A stretch of DNA of 10,554 bases from JAUWCW01 sp030609125 [NCBI: Candidatus Rokuibacteriota bacterium] (lineage in GTDB: Bacteria > JAUVQV01). The stretch lies in assembly GCA_030609125.1 (NCBI GenBank), contig JAUWCW010000041.1, positions 1 to 10,554 on the forward strand. Reading direction: 5' to 3'. Positions 2,295 to 10,554 of this stretch are shown one piece after another. A program made the translations under genes and the position numbers. Below the pieces are notes generated by a model. The model saw nothing but the letters and a program-made list of their open reading frames with translations, had not been told where the DNA came from and did not search any database. How positions within the stretch are numbered: position 1 is the stretch's first letter; the number at the start of each line of letters is the position of its first letter.

Positions 2295-2322
2295 TTGATT
2301 TCCCCCCGCCCGCTATTATAAT
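2295..2322 (+). promoter_or_regulatory. Sigma-70 promoter for the yqeY-mutS2 operon
   Basis: TTGATT (2295-2300, 4 of 6) is followed after 16 bp by a perfect TATAAT (2317-2322). It begins 3 bp after the methyltransferase stop codon. A transcript would start near 2329 and carry a leader of about 110 nt before yqeY. I see no terminator hairpin between the methyltransferase stop and this promoter, so readthrough from the his operon is possible. Confidence 0.65.
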
Positions 2323-2437: not shown

Positions 2438-2902
2438 ATGGGTCTAAAAGAGAGGCTGCAAGACGGGCTCAGGGCAGCCCTCAAAGCCGGAAACAAGGAA
2501 GCAGTCCCCGTCTACAGGCTTACGCTTTCTGAAATCCTGTACGCCGAGAAGGAAAAGCGCCGCTCCCTGGAGGAGAAGGAAGTGGTGCAGCTTCTGCGCT
2601 CGGCCGTCAAGAAGAGGAAAGAGTCCATAGAGCTCTTTCAGCAGGGCGGCCGCACCGACCTGGTGGAGAAAGAAAAAACGGAAGTGCGCGTGCTGGAAGA
2701 GTTGCTTCCCGCGTCACTGTCAGCGGAGGAACTGGCTGCCCTGGTCGACGAGGCCGTACGCGAGACCGGCGCCTCGACACCGAAAGACCTGGGCACGGTC
2801 ATGAAGTGGATCGTTCCCCGTCTCGAAGGCCGGGCCGACGGCTCCGAAGTGAGCCGCCTGGTACGGGAAAAGCTCACCGCACCCAGGAGGAGAAACCGGT
2901 GA
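2438..2902 (+). CDS. yqeY: GatB/YqeY domain protein
   Basis: The 154-residue product matches the stand-alone YqeY family at its usual length of about 150. Recognisable features are the N-terminal MGLKERLQDGLRAALK helix, the LVEKEKTEVRVLEELLP segment, the conserved TGASTPKDLGTVMK segment and the GRADGSEVSRLV C-terminal motif. The fold resembles the tRNA-binding tail of the GatB subunit of the tRNA-dependent amidotransferase, so a role in tRNA or translation is presumed, but the biochemical function is not established. The ATG at 2438 is preceded by AGGGG (2429-2433) at 4 nt spacing. yqeY commonly precedes dnaG-rpoD type operons, often just after rpsU. The stop codon overlaps the start of the next gene in a GTGA junction. 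Confidence 0.93.
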   Translation: MGLKERLQDGLRAALKAGNKEAVPVYRLTLSEILYAEKEKRRSLEEKEVVQLLRSAVKKRKESIELFQQGGRTDLVEKEKTEVRVLEELLPASLSAEELAALVDEAVRETGASTPKDLGTVMKWIVPRLEGRADGSEVSRLVREKLTAPRRRNR

Positions 2903-3852
2903 AACTCGGAGATATCTACAAGCTGACCGTCCGCGCCGGGCAGGAGGCCGACCCGCGCGGCGAGGAGAGGCTGAAGAAAGTCCTTGCCGACACGCAGAAG
3001 GAGTACGACGACCTGAAGGAGAAGGACCGGGAGTTCTTTGACAGGGAGCGGCTGGTCCATCCCTACCACGACACCAGGATTGCCTACGGGTCTCCGGACA
3101 CGGAGGTCAAGAGCATCCTCGTCGGTGTCGACATGGAAGTGGGCGAGCTCGTCCTCGCCGACAGGCTTCGTGAAAAGCGCTCCCTGGACCTCGTTCTGAC
3201 CCACCACCCGGAGGGGAGGGCCCTGGCCCGCTTCTACGAAGTCATGTGGATGCAGGCCGACATCCTGCACTCCATGGGCGTTCCCATCACCGTTGCCGAG
3301 GGGATCCTGAAAGAGCGGGTGAAACAGGTTGCCAACCGCATTCTTCCCGTCAATCACACCCGCGCCTCCGACGCAGCGCGGCTGCTGGACCTTCCCTTTC
3401 TCTGCGTTCACACGCCCGCGGACAACATGGTCACCCGCCACCTGCAGCAGCTCTTCGACGAGAAGCAGCCCGACAAGGTGGGGGAGGTCATGGAGCTGCT
3501 CATGGACATTGCCGAGTACAGGCATTTTGCCGGACTCGGTGTCGGGCCGGAGGTTGTGGCGGGAGGCGAGAAGAACCGCTGCGGCAAGGTGATGGTGGAC
3601 ATGACGGGAGGCACGGAAGGCTCGAAGGAGGCCTTCGAGAAACTCGCCCGCACCGAGGTGGGCACCATCGTCGGCATGCACATGAGCGAGGACAACCTCA
3701 AGGAAGCGGAGAAGAACCACCTGAACGTCATAATCGCCGGCCACATCTCGAGCGACACCATCGGCATCAACCTCATCCTGGACGAGGTCGAGAAGGTCGA
3801 GCCGATGGAGATCATCGCCACCTCCGGTTTCGAGAGGATTCGCCGCGCCTGA
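2899..3852 (+). CDS. Divergent NIF3-family dinuclear metal-centre protein
   Basis: This 317-residue protein belongs to the NIF3/YbgI/YqfO superfamily of metal-binding hexameric proteins, often annotated as GTP cyclohydrolase 1 type 2 although the reaction is uncertain. Predicted metal ligands are visible: LTHHP (H102, H103), HTPAD (H171, D175) and GHISSD (H282, D286). Canonical members read H-x3-E at the last site, so D286 is a conservative change. The segment around TRIAYGSPDTEVKSILVGVD aligns with DNCGLQLGSPSRPVRGILVALD of the canonical paralog at the right end of the window. About 50 extra, charged residues precede this core. I chose GTG at 2899 because AGGAGG (2885-2890) lies 8 nt upstream and the junction with yqeY is GTGA; upstream extension would run inside yqeY. 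mutS2 begins 5 bp after its stop. Confidence 0.85.
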   Translation: MKLGDIYKLTVRAGQEADPRGEERLKKVLADTQKEYDDLKEKDREFFDRERLVHPYHDTRIAYGSPDTEVKSILVGVDMEVGELVLADRLREKRSLDLVLTHHPEGRALARFYEVMWMQADILHSMGVPITVAEGILKERVKQVANRILPVNHTRASDAARLLDLPFLCVHTPADNMVTRHLQQLFDEKQPDKVGEVMELLMDIAEYRHFAGLGVGPEVVAGGEKNRCGKVMVDMTGGTEGSKEAFEKLARTEVGTIVGMHMSEDNLKEAEKNHLNVIIAGHISSDTIGINLILDEVEKVEPMEIIATSGFERIRRA

Positions 3853-3857
3853 GCTCC

Positions 3858-6200
3858 GTGTCTTTTCCTGAAGACCACACGGTAAGACTCTTGGAGTTCG
3901 ACAAGGTCCTCGACCTTGTCCGTCTCCACGCCCCCAGCAGCCTCGGCCGAGAAGCCCTCGCCGACCGGGTCCCGAGCTTCGATCGCGGAGAGGTCCTGGC
4001 CTGGCAGCGCGAAACGTCCGAGATGCGCTCCCTGAGAGAGGAGGGAAAGGACCCGTCGTGGGGAGGTTCCCAGGACGTCTCTCCGGAGCTGGAGAGGCTG
4101 AGGGCGGAAGGGTCGTGGGTCGAGCCGCCGTCGCTCAGCCGGATCGCGGAGTTCGCCGAGGCGGCGGGCAGGGTGAAGAAGGTCATCGAATCATCGGCCC
4201 GATCGTGCCCCGGGCTGTACCTCATTGCCGGGCCGATGCCTCTGCTGGAGGACCTGGCGGCGGAGATCCGGCGCTGCGTCAACGGCGAAGGCGAGGTCGA
4301 CGACGCCGCCTCGGGGGAGCTGAGGAAGATCCGCCGGGGGCTGGAGCAGACGCGGCGCGATCTCATTTCGTCCCTGGAGCGATACTTCAGCAGGCCCGAG
4401 AGCGCCGGGGCCGTTCAGGAGCAGATTGTCACCCGGCGGGCGGAGCGCTACGTCATCCCCGTCAAGGCGGGCTCGAGAGGCGCTATCCGGGGCCTCGTCC
4501 ACGACCGGTCTGCCAGCGGTCAGACGCTCTACGTCGAACCGGAGAGCGTGGTGCAGAAGAACAACGCCCTCCGGGAACTCCTGACGGCGGAGCGGGATGA
4601 GGTCCTGCGGATACTGCGCCGTCTTGGATCCCTGGTGCGGGGCGAGAGTGAGAGCATCCGGGCGGCGACGGCAGGCATGGCGTCCCTGGAAGCGATCTGG
4701 GCCCGCGCGGTCTTCTGCGCCGAGGCGGACCTGACCGAGCCGGTGATCTTCGAGGACGAGGGGAGGATAGAGCTGGGCGCCGCGAGGCATCCTCTGCTCG
4801 ATCAGGCCGTGGGCGAAGGGGTGGTGCCGGTCGATTTCTCTCTCGGCGGCGACACGAGGACCCTTGTCCTGACCGGTCCCAACACCGGGGGCAAGACGGT
4901 CGCCCTCAAGACGGTAGGACTGCTCTGTCTCATGGCCCAGAGCGGTCTGCAGATACCGGCGTTGCCGGAGAGCGGCATGTCGTGCTTTTCCGGGATTCTT
5001 GCGGACATCGGCGATGAGCAGTCGATCCAGCAGAGCCTTTCCACCTTCTCGGGTCACATGAAGAACATCATCACCGTCCTCGAGCGCTCCGGGCCGGGCA
5101 CCCTCGCTCTGCTGGACGAGCTCGGCGCCGGCACGGACCCCTCGGAGGGGGCGGCCATCGGCATCGCCGTCCTCGAGGAGCTGCACTCCCGGGGCGGCCT
5201 CACCGCCGCCACCACCCACCACAACGCGGTGAAGGTCTTCGCCTCGGTGACCCCGGGGGTGGCCAACGCGTCGATGGAGTTCGACAGCGAAACCCTTCGC
5301 CCGACCTACCGCCTCGTGAAAGGAATACCGGGCAGGAGCCAGGCCTTTCACATTGCGGCCCGTCTCGGCCTGGACAAGGAGGTGCTGGAGAGGGCACGGA
5401 GGCACCGCAGTTCCGGCGAAGTGCGTCTCGATCGCCTCGTGGCCGACCTGGAAAGGGAGCGCTCCGGGTTGTCGGAGGAGAAGGCGCTCCTGGAGAAGGA
5501 AAGGGATCTGCTCCGGAAGCAAATGCAGAAGGAGCGGCAGCGCTGGGAGAAGAAGCGGGAGAAGATAGAAAAAGAAGGCCGCGGTGCGCTGCGAGAGGCG
5601 GAGCGGGAGCTGAGGAAGAGCAGGGAGAGGCTGAGAGAGGAAAAAAGCCGTTCTTCCGCGGAGGGGGTGCGGGCATCGATGCAGAAGGTGCAGGAGGTTC
5701 TCCGCCGGCACGCTCCCGCCCCGGAGGTTCCCGGACCGCCGGTGGAAGCTCCCGCCACAGGAGACCAGGTCTTTCTGCGAACGTTGAGGGCCTGGGGCAG
5801 GGTGGAGGATATGGAAAAGGGGAACGTGACGGTCATGGTGGACGGCAAGCGCTGCACGGTTCCCCTCGGGGAAATTGAAAAGAGCCGGAAGGCGACGGGT
5901 AAAGTTGAGCGCAGGACATCCTGGGGAACATACACGGTTGAGGTGCCGGCCATCAGATCGAGCGAGATCGACCTCCGGGGGCTGCGCGCCGAGGAGGCCC
6001 TGAACGATCTTGACCGGTTTATCGGCCACGCGCTTCTGAACGGTCTGCAGGAGATTTCCGTCATCCATGGCAAGGGCTCGGGCCGTCTCCAGGAGGCGGT
6101 GCGGGAATACCTCTCCGGCCATTCCCGGGTCGAGAACTTCGAGTTTGCTCCCTTGGAACAGGGTGGATCGGGGATGACCCGGGTCAGACTATCCGCATGA
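3858..6200 (+). CDS. mutS2: Endonuclease/ATPase MutS2 with C-terminal Smr domain
   Basis: The 780-residue product has full-length MutS2 architecture. An N-terminal core and clamp (1 to about 320) is followed by the ABC-type ATPase: Walker A GPNTGGKT (340-347), signature STFSG (395-399), Walker B LLDE (D420, E421) and the TTHHN switch (452-456). A long charged coiled coil (about 524-615) leads to a KOW-like region (about 634-675) and an Smr domain with DLRG (705-708) and HGKGSG (737-742). The mismatch-recognition domain of MutS is missing, as expected. Known MutS2 proteins suppress homologous recombination or split collided ribosomes; which applies here cannot be told. The GTG at 3858 follows the previous stop by 5 bp and gives the family-typical RLLEFDKVLDL start. 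Its ribosome binding site is weak, which suggests coupling. The same frame is open further upstream, but only inside the NIF3-like gene. Confidence 0.95.
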   Translation: MSFPEDHTVRLLEFDKVLDLVRLHAPSSLGREALADRVPSFDRGEVLAWQRETSEMRSLREEGKDPSWGGSQDVSPELERLRAEGSWVEPPSLSRIAEFAEAAGRVKKVIESSARSCPGLYLIAGPMPLLEDLAAEIRRCVNGEGEVDDAASGELRKIRRGLEQTRRDLISSLERYFSRPESAGAVQEQIVTRRAERYVIPVKAGSRGAIRGLVHDRSASGQTLYVEPESVVQKNNALRELLTAERDEVLRILRRLGSLVRGESESIRAATAGMASLEAIWARAVFCAEADLTEPVIFEDEGRIELGAARHPLLDQAVGEGVVPVDFSLGGDTRTLVLTGPNTGGKTVALKTVGLLCLMAQSGLQIPALPESGMSCFSGILADIGDEQSIQQSLSTFSGHMKNIITVLERSGPGTLALLDELGAGTDPSEGAAIGIAVLEELHSRGGLTAATTHHNAVKVFASVTPGVANASMEFDSETLRPTYRLVKGIPGRSQAFHIAARLGLDKEVLERARRHRSSGEVRLDRLVADLERERSGLSEEKALLEKERDLLRKQMQKERQRWEKKREKIEKEGRGALREAERELRKSRERLREEKSRSSAEGVRASMQKVQEVLRRHAPAPEVPGPPVEAPATGDQVFLRTLRAWGRVEDMEKGNVTVMVDGKRCTVPLGEIEKSRKATGKVERRTSWGTYTVEVPAIRSSEIDLRGLRAEEALNDLDRFIGHALLNGLQEISVIHGKGSGRLQEAVREYLSGHSRVENFEFAPLEQGGSGMTRVRLSA

Positions 6201-6215
6201 AAATCATCAAAAAGG

Positions 6216-6243
6216 TTGTTTTTTATTAATCTGAACCTATATT
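6216..6243 (+). promoter_or_regulatory. Candidate promoter for dnaG-rpoD
   Basis: TTGTTT (6216-6221, 3 of 6) and TATATT (6238-6243, 5 of 6) are separated by 16 bp. They lie in a conspicuous AT-rich patch (about 6198-6250) between GC-rich genes. The transcript would start near 6250 and carry a leader of about 30 nt. This would give dnaG-rpoD a promoter separate from the yqeY-mutS2 transcript; no terminator separates the two, so both inputs are possible. Confidence 0.45.
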
Positions 6244-6279
6244 TACCTCTGACATCCAGACAAGGAGCACGGTTCCGAT

Positions 6280-8049
6280 TTGTTTTCCGAAGATTTGCTT
6301 GACGACATCAGGAGTGCAAACGCCATCAGCGAGGTCGTTTCCGAGTTCCTGCCGCTGAACAAAAGTGGCAGTAATTACAAAGGGTTATGTCCTTTTCACG
6401 CGGAAAAGACTCCTTCCTTCATGGTCAATCCCGAAAAGAGGATCTTCCATTGCTTCGGTTGCGGCGAAGGTGGCAATGTCTTTGGTTTTGTTATGAAACA
6501 TCAGAACATGACCTTTCCCGAGGCGGTGCGCTACCTGGCGAAAAGGGGAGGGGTGCGGATTCCGGAGAACCTCCCCCCCCGGCAGCGAGAGCGCGGGAGG
6601 GAGAAAGAGCGTCTCCAGGAGGCCAACGCCGCTGCCGCGGAGCACTTCCGGGAGAACCTTCTCGGCCCGCAGGGGAAGAGGGCCATGGCCTATCTGCTGA
6701 AACGGGGCATGAGCCGCGAGACGATCGACGGCTTTTCCCTCGGCTGCGCCCGCCCCTCGTGGGACGCCCTCTCGAGGGCACTGCGGGCGAAGGGCTTCAA
6801 GGAGGAGGAGCTGGTCAAGGCAGGCCTCATCGTCCCCAGGTCGAGCGGCGGGTTCAACGACCGCTTCCGCAACAGGATTATCTTCCCCATCAACGACCTG
6901 CAGGGCAACGTCATCGCTTTCGGCGGACGTATCATGGGCGACGGCGAGCCGAAGTACCTGAACTCGCCCGAGACGCCCCTTTACAACAAGAGCAAGGTGC
7001 TCTACGGCTTCGACCGGGCGCGGGACACCTTCCGCAAGGAAGGCTTCGGCGTAGTCGTCGAGGGCTACTTCGACTGCATCACCGCCCACCAGGGGGGAGT
7101 CAGAAACGTGGTGGCCACGTCGGGGACGGCGCTGACGGACGATCACCTCCGGCTGATGGAAAGATACAGCCCTCGGTGGACCGTCATGTTCGACGGCGAC
7201 ACCGCCGGAATCCGCGCGGCCAAGAGAAGCCTGGCGCTTTTCGTCTCCCACGGGCTTTTCGCCCGGGGGGTCCTTCTGCCGGAGGGCGAGGACCCCGACT
7301 CCTTCTTCTCGAAGAACGGAAAAGACGCTTTTTGTGCCCTGCTGGAAGGCGCGGAGAGCCTGATGGATTTTTTTATCGGACGGACGGTGCAGGAGCACCG
7401 TACGGGAACGGTGGAAGGCAAAGTGGCCGCTGTCCGCGAGGTAGTGCCGCTGCTGGCAAAAGTAAAAGGAAACGTTGAGCTGGCGGAATACGTCGGTCTC
7501 GCCGCCCACCGTCTCGGTGTCAAGGAGGAGGTCCTGTGGTCAGAGGTCCAGGCGACTGCTTCCCAGGGGAAGAAAGGGAAGCCGCCCGTCGCCAGGATCC
7601 CGCTTTCCCTGAAGTCGGGGCGGGCGGAGGAGACCGGGATAGTCAGGGCCATGCTGAACAGCGAGGCCGTTGCCGCTCGGATGAAGAAGGAGGTTTCCCT
7701 CGAGGACCTCGAAGACGATGACTGCAGAGCGGTCGCGGCGCGCATCTTCTCCCTCCTTGACGAGGGCGTCACCGGCGGTATCGGTGATCGCCTTCACTTC
7801 GAAGAGGAGCACCTCAACCGCCTGGTCGCGTCGTGGCTGGCCGACTCTCGTTTCTCAGGGGACGAGAAGACGGCCCTCAGGGAGGCAAGGGACTGTCTTG
7901 CCCGCCTTGGAAAACGGCGCGTCGACCGGGAGAGCCTCCTTCTTCAGGAGAAGATAGTGGAAGCCGAGCGAACAGGAAACAAGGACGTCATTCACAAGCT
8001 GCTCAGGATAAAACAGGGACTCAGGCTGCAGGCCGGGCCGGGCAGTTGA
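6280..8049 (+). CDS. dnaG: DNA primase DnaG
   Basis: DnaG makes RNA primers for the replication fork. The 589-residue protein has the CHC2 zinc-binding domain (C37, H40, C58, C61), a short linker, and the RNA polymerase core with FGGR...[11 protein letters not shown] (214-234). The Toprim domain carries the catalytic E261 in VEGYFD and the DGD motif (D305, D307). The C-terminal part (about 430-589) should be the helicase-binding domain and is poorly conserved. The start must be the TTG at 6280: in the 30 bases upstream there is no other start codon before an in-frame TGA at 6250. AAGGAG (6262-6267) is a strong ribosome binding sequence but sits 12 nt away, so initiation is probably inefficient, in keeping with the low abundance of primase. 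A run of eight C residues (6573-6580) lies in the linker. rpoD follows 19 bp after its stop. Confidence 0.97.
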
Positions 8050-8056
8050 GAATTTG

Positions 8057-8062
8057 AGGAGG
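8057..8062 (+). promoter_or_regulatory. Strong ribosome binding site that fixes the rpoD start
   Basis: A perfect AGGAGG ends 6 nt before the ATG at 8069. A TTG at 8054 in the same frame would add five residues but would place the Shine-Dalgarno inside the coding region, so the ATG is preferred. The contrast with the poorly spaced TTG start of dnaG suggests much higher translation of rpoD from the shared message. Confidence 0.85.
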
Positions 8063-8068
8063 ATAGGA

Positions 8069-9847
<1,779 letters not shown>

Positions 9848-9867
9848 GGGGTCACACACATCTTTCC

Positions 9868-9895
9868 TTGACAGGCTCCCTCTCTGGCTTATAAT
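9868..9895 (+). promoter_or_regulatory. Consensus promoter for the tRNA gene
   Basis: TTGACA (9868-9873) and TATAAT (9890-9895) both match consensus perfectly and are separated by 16 bp. The promoter lies 20 bp after the rpoD stop and places the transcript start near 9902, a few bases before the mature tRNA 5' end at 9907. It is the strongest promoter in the window. Confidence 0.85.
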
Positions 9896-9906
9896 TAAGC
9901 TTTTCC

Positions 9907-9982
9907 GGGCCTATAGCTCAGTTGGAAGAGCCACCGGCTCATAACCGGTAGGTCCTAGGTTCGAGCCCTAGTGGGCCCACCA
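9907..9982 (+). tRNA. tRNA with CAU anticodon: elongator Met or Ile2
   Basis: The 76-nt gene folds as a complete cloverleaf. The acceptor stem pairs 9907-9913 with 9972-9978 (one G-U pair), the D stem pairs GCTC with GAGC, the anticodon stem pairs ACCGG (9933-9937) with CCGGT (9945-9949), and the T stem pairs CTAGG (9955-9959) with CCTAG (9967-9971) around TTCGAGC. The anticodon CAT is at 9940-9942, the discriminator is A and CCA is encoded. It is not an initiator: the first acceptor pair is a G-C match and the anticodon stem lacks three consecutive G-C pairs. CAU also occurs in the AUA-reading tRNA-Ile2, whose C34 is changed to lysidine by TilS. The C4-G69 and C5-G68 pairs seen here are TilS-favouring features in E. 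coli, so the amino acid identity is open. Confidence 0.95.
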
Positions 9983-10044
9983 ATTACCATCCAGCTGATA
10001 CGAGAGAGGCTTTTGGCAGGAGATTTTCATACAATCGGCGAACG

Positions 10045-10073
10045 TTTCCCCCGCCGCCGTGAAGTGGGGGAAG
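10045..10073 (+). other. Stem-loop upstream of the terminator in the tRNA-nif3 gap
   Basis: TTTCCCCC (10045-10052) can pair with GGGGGAAG (10066-10073, one G-U pair) around a 13-nt loop. It is followed within six bases by the terminator hairpin. The rest of the gap between the tRNA and nif3 (9983-10149) holds no recognisable gene or known RNA family. Confidence 0.4.
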
Positions 10074-10082
10074 AGCAGAGGG

Positions 10083-10112
10083 GTGCATCTTCGGATGCAC
10101 TCTTTCTTATTT
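10083..10112 (+). terminator. Intrinsic terminator with a C(UUCG)G tetraloop
   Basis: GTGCATC (10083-10089) pairs perfectly with GATGCAC (10094-10100) around the exceptionally stable UUCG loop closed by C-G, and is followed by the T-rich tract TCTTTCTTATTT. G-U and G-C pairs can lengthen the base. It is about 100 nt downstream of the tRNA and probably ends the tRNA and any rpoD readthrough transcripts. It is also upstream of nif3, so it would attenuate any transcript entering that gene. Confidence 0.85.
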
Positions 10113-10124
10113 GGGGGATAAGCG

Positions 10125-10142
10125 CCTCCCGGTCCGGGGAGG
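10125..10142 (+). promoter_or_regulatory. Hairpin covering the nif3 ribosome binding site
   Basis: CCTCCC (10125-10130) is the exact complement of GGGAGG (10137-10142), which contains the Shine-Dalgarno of nif3, 7 nt before its ATG. The loop is six bases. A GGGGG run at 10113-10117 could compete for the CCTCCC arm and release the site, so two folds are possible. Confidence 0.45.
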
Positions 10143-10149
10143 GACTTTG

Positions 10150-10554
10150 ATGGTCCGGGTCGGCACTGTCGCCCGGATCATAGAAACCATAGCGCCCCTG
10201 CACCTTGCCCTCCCGGGGGACAACTGCGGCCTTCAGCTCGGCAGCCCGTCCCGTCCCGTCCGGGGAATTCTCGTGGCCCTCGACCCTTCGCTGGATGCGG
10301 TCCGCAGGGCCGCCGGCCGGAAGGCGAACATGCTTGTCACCCATCACCCCCTTTTCTACGAGCCCATCAGGCGGCTGGACACTTCCACCGCCACCGGCGC
10401 GGCGGCGGCTCTGGCAATCTCGAAGGGCGTGGCGGTCTACTCGGCACACACCAGCCTCGACGCCGCCCCGGAGGGACTTGCCCGGGAGCTGGCGCGACGC
10501 GCCGGCCTGGAAGACGTCCGTTTCTTCCCCTCCAGCCTCTCCGAGCGGTGGTTC
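10150..10554 (+). CDS. Canonical NIF3/YbgI/YqfO-family protein, 5' part
   Basis: The first 135 residues are present and the frame is open to the window edge. The order is that of canonical NIF3 proteins: an N-terminal helix, GDNCGLQLG (the conserved D-N-x-G-L-Q motif), a VLVALD-like strand, LVTHHPLFY with metal ligands H65 and H66, and HTSLD with H100 and D104. The second metal-site motif, usually G-H-x3-E, should lie beyond the edge. Family members form hexameric toroids with a dinuclear metal centre; the GTP cyclohydrolase label sometimes used is not firmly supported. The ATG at 10150 is preceded by GGAGG (10138-10142) at 7 nt. nif3 genes are frequently found just downstream of rpoD/sigA, so the context supports the call. 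It is a distant paralog of the protein at 2899-3852. Confidence 0.92.
   Translation, partial: MVRVGTVARIIETIAPLHLALPGDNCGLQLGSPSRPVRGILVALDPSLDAVRRAAGRKANMLVTHHPLFYEPIRRLDTSTATGAAAALAISKGVAVYSAHTSLDAAPEGLARELARRAGLEDVRFFPSSLSERWF

Follow-up and report, generated by a model that had tools for sequence, protein, structure and literature searches.

The window analyzed here is a contig of 10,554 bases (JAUWCW010000041.1, denoted C186) from a Candidatus Rokuibacteriota bacterium (assembly GCA_030609125.1). It carries two genes of NIF3, one of the most widely distributed protein families for which no function is agreed. One is a canonical copy cut by the contig end, and the other is a divergent form, denoted NIF3d, that lies between yqeY and mutS2 and upstream of dnaG and rpoD. 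NIF3d belongs to a separate clade whose genes are chiefly neighbors of the macromolecular synthesis genes rpsU, dnaG, and rpoD, with yqeY and mutS2 as lesser partners. The explanation tentatively preferred, at somewhat less than an even chance, is that NIF3d is a NIF3 variant with a housekeeping role that belongs to the macromolecular synthesis operon, has a remodeled dinuclear metal site, and stands in for canonical NIF3.

In this explanation, the operon has the order rpsU, yqeY or cvpA, NIF3d, sometimes mutS2, dnaG, and rpoD in many bacterial lineages. The protein would form the hexameric ring typical of NIF3, with two divalent metals held by His102, His103, His171, Asp175, His282, and Asp286. 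It would carry out the same general metal-dependent job as the canonical protein, in most cases with no second NIF3 found in the genome. The clean two-position change of the site allows a direct comparison of metals, ligands, and clients against the residue of the C-terminal motif. In addition, NIF3d is poorly caught by current family models and is easily misannotated or missed.

Fold, clade, and metal site of NIF3d

A sequence search connects NIF3d to Protein Data Bank (PDB) entry 3RXY (Sthe_0840 of Sphaerobacter thermophilus, known as a structure only) with an E-value of 5.9e-23. Against PF01784, the window protein scores 22.9 bits, under the Pfam cut-off of 23.4, and several other members of the clade exceed that curated cut-off. 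Its score against TIGR00486, the equivalog model of the canonical YbgI/SA1388 type, is 21.7 bits, far below the cut-off of 130.55. Among the 43 members of the NIF3d alignment, matches with E ≤ 0.01 are given by all 43 for PF01784 and by 35 for TIGR00486. No model specific to the clade was found in Pfam or NCBIfam, and a scan of viral contigs with the window protein returned no relative.

An AlphaFold2 monomer model built from 43 sequences has a mean predicted local distance difference test (pLDDT) score of 93.8 and a predicted template modeling (pTM) score of 0.91. VIA-align superposes the model on 3RXY with Z 30.5 and a root-mean-square deviation of 1.9 over 265 residues. Another eleven NIF3 entries have Z 13.4–15.2, and the first entry outside NIF3 appears at Z 6.5. 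The non-NIF3 neighbors, at Z 4–6.5, are DRTGG domains, PurH, and pseudomurein ligase. According to the predicted structure, the protein has the NIF3 alpha/beta fold, which bears out the family assignment of the original prediction.

The position of NIF3d within the family was examined with a quick tree of 109 rows, using support values of the Shimodaira–Hasegawa-like approximate likelihood ratio test (SH-aLRT) and no bootstrap. Two rows were omitted as too gappy, and some near-duplicates and split-match rows were dropped from the trees. NIF3d (69 rows), 3RXY-like proteins (7), and canonical proteins (33) each occupy one side of a branch. NIF3d and 3RXY-like proteins are parted from canonical NIF3 by a branch with an SH-aLRT of 100 and a length of 3.13, and the support of each group's own branch is 93 for NIF3d and 95 for the 3RXY-like proteins. 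NIF3d is the sister branch to the 3RXY-like group and does not lie within it. Because the tree separates NIF3d from canonical NIF3, the two copies of the window are old paralogues and not the product of a recent duplication. The nearest relative of the window NIF3d, at 66% identity, comes from G001, which belongs to the same order. One canonical gene, that of G184, is odd (83.7 bits, second His of HHP replaced, branch length 4.71) and was counted as canonical.

The protein of 3RXY shares with NIF3d the fold, the H-x3-D motif, and, by alignment, the His at position 261, but it is only 27–28% identical and sits on its separate branch. Assignment to the 3RXY-like group was checked for three of the seven rows, which match 3RXY at 1.6e-68, 6.5e-70, and 8.4e-47. 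The seven 3RXY-like proteins (L144–L150) come from sampled genomes G130, G102, G368, G240, G077, G037, and G182. They have no residue aligned to the DPR motif of NIF3d, and none of the neighbor families modeled for NIF3d was found around them.

Canonical DUF34/NIF3 proteins (YbgI, YqfO, SA1388, and HcgD) share with NIF3d the fold (Z 13–15), the HH pair, the HxxxD motif, the last His of the site, and a partial linkage to dnaG and rpoD. They differ in a C-terminal Glu in place of Asp, in the acid of TG[DE] in place of His, and in a shorter N terminus and a shorter segment after HHP. In the window, the two proteins align by BLASTP with an E-value of 3e-5, the best stretch having 20 of 63 residues identical. 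Their similarity is confined to the named motifs, and the N terminus of NIF3d is longer and contains the DPR motif. The original prediction had described an alignment around core motifs with a different N-terminal region, and both features are seen.

Site residues were compared in an alignment of 105 NIF3d, 7 3RXY-like, and 33 canonical proteins; the partial protein L056 was left out of alignments and trees. Conserved throughout the alignment are both His residues of HHP, the first and last residues of HTPAD (His and Asp), and the final His of the site; G184 is the single canonical row that lacks the second His of HHP. Two positions change. The acid of the C-terminal motif is Asp in 100/100 gap-free NIF3d and 7/7 3RXY-like rows, and Glu in 32/32 gap-free canonical rows, with a spacing of three residues in all of these rows. 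At the acid position of TG[DE], the same 100/100 and 7/7 rows have His, and the 32/32 gap-free canonical rows have Asp or Glu. The gapped NIF3d rows are L046, L047, L048, L050, and L052, in which a shorter N terminus splits the profile match; in the full-length alignment they retain both altered residues. These five proteins are from Omnitrophota, and their N-terminal extension is short by 27 residues after the DPR motif, with the site motifs kept. NIF3d is further marked by an extended stretch from HHP to HTP, containing Gln119 (99/100), Arg140 (99/100), and Asn152 (100/100 gap-free rows), where 33/33 canonical rows have gaps.

The alignment thus indicates that the metal site of NIF3d is remodeled at two positions that change together. 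In SA1388, Glu329 coordinates both metals, according to the parts of the structure report consulted (PMC1779786). The Glu of the C-terminal motif aligns at chain position 333 of the 370-residue SA1388 construct, which would correspond to Glu329 on the assumption of a four-residue tag. SA1388, Bacillus cereus YqfO, and SP1609 have the C-terminal Glu with H-x2-E spacing. As for the difference in the H-x3-(E/D) region originally proposed for the two window proteins, it stands as Asp against Glu across the clades; for the window's canonical copy this region lies outside the window, since the contig stops at 10,554.

Linkage to macromolecular synthesis genes

The sample comprised 386 genomes, in which 72 profile matches were divided into 62 NIF3d proteins, 7 3RXY-like proteins, and 3 matches read as cross-matches to canonical genes. 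The 62 NIF3d loci span 37 families, and some end at contig ends. As a control, canonical NIF3 loci were taken from 30 NIF3d-negative genomes (25 families), which were chosen by hand in the upper portion of the TIGR00486 match list and are not a random draw. Linkage means a same-strand location at a distance of at most 6 kb, and the neighbor models were built from NIF3d loci.

Around NIF3d, rpsU is found in 31/62 loci compared with 0/30 for canonical NIF3, dnaG in 35/62 compared with 6/30, and rpoD in 33/62 compared with 6/30. The corresponding values are 14/62 and 0/30 for yqeY, 7/62 and 0/30 for cvpA, and 7/62 and 4/30 for mutS2. For the gene of a COG1579 zinc-ribbon protein they are 9/62 and 11/30. 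Since models derived from NIF3d loci could favor NIF3d over the control, the 30 control genomes were searched again, as wholes, with Pfam models of rpsU, dnaG, and yqeY; rpoD, cvpA, and the other neighbors were outside this re-run. Matches to the three genes occur in 25, 29, and 14 of the 30 genomes, and the numbers inside the 6 kb limit around canonical NIF3 are 0, 6, and 0, unchanged from the first count.

The linkage is close in many loci. A dnaG gene lies within 500 bases downstream of NIF3d in 32/62 loci and 19/37 families; with the limit set at 3.1 kb, the counts are 35 loci and 21 families. Upstream, yqeY lies within 1.1 kb in 14 loci of 12 families, and mutS2 directly follows NIF3d in 7 loci of 4 families. 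Either yqeY or mutS2 is linked in 17/62 loci and 13/37 families, so the recurrence expected from the original prediction is present. Its choice of yqeY and mutS2 as key partners holds in part: both recur, but the main partners are rpsU, dnaG, and rpoD, and an excess of mutS2 over canonical NIF3 does not emerge by family (4/37 vs. 2/25).

Relative to the known macromolecular synthesis operon, rpsU-dnaG-rpoD, NIF3d is often situated between rpsU, yqeY, or cvpA and dnaG-rpoD. A second context was seen in firmicutes among 44 named loci, with the order pheS-pheT-zapA-(polX)-NIF3d-U32 peptidase-mutS2. The links to yqeY and mutS2 seen in the window belong to the macromolecular synthesis linkage and to this second conserved string. 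In coriobacteria and actinobacteria the contexts are looser.

Canonical NIF3 is also a neighbor of dnaG-rpoD in some other loci. In the portions of the DUF34 review consulted, COG0568 (sigma factor) and COG0358 (primase) rank 3 and 4 among the operon partners of COG0327 (PMC8469502). COG1579 genes adjoin rpoD and dnaG, and NIF3 genes adjoin COG1579, in the accessible parts of another study (PMC3372290). In the literature surveyed, by titles and abstract starts and with partial coverage, no NIF3-type cistron upstream of dnaG in the macromolecular synthesis operon was found. Nor did a survey made mostly of titles and abstract starts, with most subscription papers outside its coverage, contain a paper dedicated to the NIF3d clade.

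Genes of two further sequence clusters accompany NIF3d. Those of one cluster lie directly upstream in 7 loci of 6 groups (L035, L037, L045, L112, L114, L128, and L130), in two different operon contexts; Pfam identifies the L035 member as a methylpurine-DNA glycosylase (PF02245). Those of the other lie directly downstream in L098, L106, L109, and L123, loci that have no dnaG, and the L109 member is assigned by Pfam to the prolidase-type M24 metallopeptidases.

Co-occurrence with canonical NIF3 and possible roles

Canonical NIF3 is present in 12/62 NIF3d genomes, belonging to 8/37 families, compared with 173/324 other genomes (Fisher p 6.7e-7). The figure of 173 is obtained from 197 genomes with a TIGR00486 match by removing 23 NIF3d genomes and G037, whose match was read as its 3RXY-like protein. 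Two weak PF01784 matches were not counted as canonical; the first, in G390, scores 21.2 bits alone and spans 35 positions, and the other is in G404. In the remaining 50/62 genomes no canonical NIF3 was found, which a stand-in for canonical NIF3 would fit. Among the named genomes, both forms occur in 19/44, of which 17 are firmicutes or actinobacteria by record title and the others are L014 and L035; none of the 10 genomes titled Omnitrophota or Omnitrophica is among the 19. Many of the assemblies are incomplete. Cultured carriers of NIF3d include Heliobacterium mobile and H. chlorum (L055 and L027), and heliobacteria are among the organisms with both forms. The consulted part of the DUF34 review proposes a metal insertase or chaperone role for the family (PMC8469502). 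Disruption of Bacillus subtilis YqfO altered the expression of >400 genes in one RNA sequencing comparison, as given in the part of that report consulted (PMC8670212).

Several observations weigh against the preferred explanation. The stand-in role is something we infer, and the joint substitution of two site residues might signal a different reaction. In the portion of the DUF34 review consulted, no metal is listed for 3RXY (PMC8469502). The counts of canonical absence are confounded by lineage, 19 of the 44 named genomes having both forms. The contrast in rpsU and yqeY is partly positional, as such operons have canonical NIF3 on the far side of rpoD; in G093, rpsU and yqeY lie 6.5–7.1 kb from canonical NIF3, just past the 6 kb limit. 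No dnaG within 3.1 kb and no adjoining mutS2 is found in 23/62 loci, some of which end at contig ends, and the window itself has dnaG-rpoD with no rpsU found in it. Finally, when dnaG context was compared with canonical presence in independent pairs on the NIF3d tree, the outcome was 0.2 the same way and 0.7 the other way of 5 pairs. A tie between dnaG context and canonical absence, suggested by a raw Fisher p of 2e-4 (98 rows), was rejected for want of support in these pairs.

Of the alternatives, the one that survives best, if still somewhat unlikely, is that the two forms have specialized roles, acting on different substrates or clients, with NIF3d having diverged through its altered site. 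The joint replacement of two site acids and the Gln119, Arg140, and Asn152 residues of the NIF3d-specific segment would suit such a division, as would the 12 sampled and 19 named genomes where both forms coexist. Set against this, NIF3d is the only NIF3 found in most of the sampled genomes, and dnaG, rpoD, and the COG1579 zinc-ribbon gene accompany both forms in part of the loci. The original prediction had extended the idea to two specialized roles within one neighborhood. As a general arrangement this is not supported: both forms share a genome in a minority of cases, and in 30 other two-copy genomes no NIF3d was found in the stretches fetched around the canonical gene, several of these stretches being short or ending at contig ends. 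Bracketing of mutS2-dnaG-rpoD by two NIF3 genes was accordingly discarded as a conserved feature, having been seen once, in the window. In G001, the one relative of the same order, NIF3d and canonical NIF3 are on different contigs, and no dnaG was found in the 6.0 kb fetched downstream of NIF3d. Specialization is possible where both forms are present.

It is improbable that NIF3d acts directly with its replication and repair neighbors, whether in the form of a ring on single-stranded DNA or through nuclease or phosphatase activity toward primers or repair products. The neighbors do include dnaG, and mutS2, PolX, or methylpurine-DNA glycosylase lies within four genes of NIF3d in 25/106 loci and 22/81 groups. 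The accessible part of one report describes DNA binding in vitro by TTHA1606 and MJ0927 (PMC4163360), but the TTHA1606 binding is called very weak in the portion of the DUF34 review consulted (PMC8469502). Moreover, a mutS2-dnaG-rpoD string exists with canonical NIF3 and without NIF3d in L184, and the NIF3d proteins are slightly acidic, with a median net charge of −3 (canonical −8). An argument for nucleic acid binding from a charged ring was dropped, as net charge gives it no support.

A comparably low probability is given to NIF3d as a passenger, a housekeeping gene without functional tie to its neighbors whose linkage reflects inherited operon order. Contexts change at least 9–10 times on the clade trees, and NIF3d stands among unrelated genes in coriobacterial, actinobacterial, and other loci, both of which would be expected of a passenger. 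However, dnaG within 500 bases downstream in 19/37 families is much for plain inertia; gene order alone cannot decide. Least probable is that NIF3d is an unrecognized part of the primase/sigma operon dedicated to DnaG (zinc ribbon, Toprim metals), which it would serve by loading metal or by metal-dependent processing. Its remodeled dinuclear site, with Asp for the bridging Glu and His for the TG[DE] acid, would then be suited to this client, and the protein would have replaced canonical NIF3 in a number of phyla.

Layout of the window and its canonical copy

The window spans contig C186 from end to end, and the genome is fragmented (2.3 Mb in 376 contigs). On the forward strand the order is hisB, hisIE, a methyltransferase gene, yqeY, NIF3d, mutS2, dnaG, rpoD, tRNA-Met, and canonical NIF3 as far as codon 135 (Table 1). 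Both NIF3 genes of the original prediction are present at the stated positions, the canonical one being cut at 10,554. The GTG start of NIF3d overlaps the stop of yqeY by 4 bases (GTGA), and mutS2 starts 5 bases past the NIF3d stop.

Table 1. Features of the window, with the site codons of NIF3d
Feature	Position	Strand	Basis or remark
Promoter-like site upstream of yqeY, TTGATT-16-TATAAT	2295..2322	+	consensus scan, 10/12
yqeY	2438..2902	+	PF09424, E 2.5e-43
Divergent NIF3 (NIF3d), 317 residues, GTG start	2899..3852	+	PDB 3RXY match and structure model; start backed by N-terminal alignment
His102-His103 codons (THHP metal motif)	3202..3207	+	invariant in 43/43; HH in 32/33 canonical rows
His171 to Asp175 codons (HTPAD; HTSLD in the window's canonical copy)	3409..3423	+	His171 and Asp175 invariant, also in 33/33 canonical rows
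His261 codon, replacing Asp/Glu of canonical TG[DE]	3679..3681	+	alignment
His282 to Asp286 codons, H-x3-D (canonical H-x3-E)	3742..3756	+	alignment
mutS2, GTG start	3858..6200	+	TIGR01069, E 4.8e-234
dnaG, TTG start as listed	6280..8049	+	PF01807, PF08275, Toprim, PF10410
rpoD, start codon uncertain	8054..9847	+	sigma-70 regions 1.1, 1.2, 2, 3, 4
Promoter-like site upstream of tRNA-Met, TTGACA-16-TATAAT	9868..9895	+	consensus scan, 12/12 (perfect consensus)
tRNA-Met (CAT)	9907..9982	+	ARAGORN
Terminator-like hairpin between tRNA-Met and canonical NIF3	10078..10105	+	12 pairs, T-rich tail
Canonical NIF3, first 135 residues, cut by contig end	10150..10554	+	PF01784, E 4.1e-35

The two NIF3 genes of the window are probably on separate transcripts, given the promoter-like site and the terminator-like hairpin between rpoD and canonical NIF3. 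The nearness of the two genes would then most likely be incidental, both being neighbors of dnaG-rpoD. The promoter-like sites are pattern matches and no evidence of function (4 found in the window against 0.9 expected from shuffles), and the terminator-like hits are not in excess (7 against 9.2 expected).

The remainder of the canonical gene is probably the start of contig C7, which covers profile positions 128–251. This probable remainder shows the HPYE motif of the PII-like insert, a motif so named in the part of the DUF34 review consulted (PMC8469502), and is followed by a COG1579-type zinc-ribbon gene and a ribonuclease H gene. Since a search of C7 for the end sequence of C186, at lengths from 15 to 120 bases in 5-base increments, gave no hit, we infer, and do not observe, that one canonical gene is split over the two contigs. 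In other bacteria, tRNA-Met is among the genes of flgZ (COG1579) neighborhoods with dnaG and sigma-70 genes, as stated in a figure legend of the partly accessible source (PMC3372290, Figure 3 legend).

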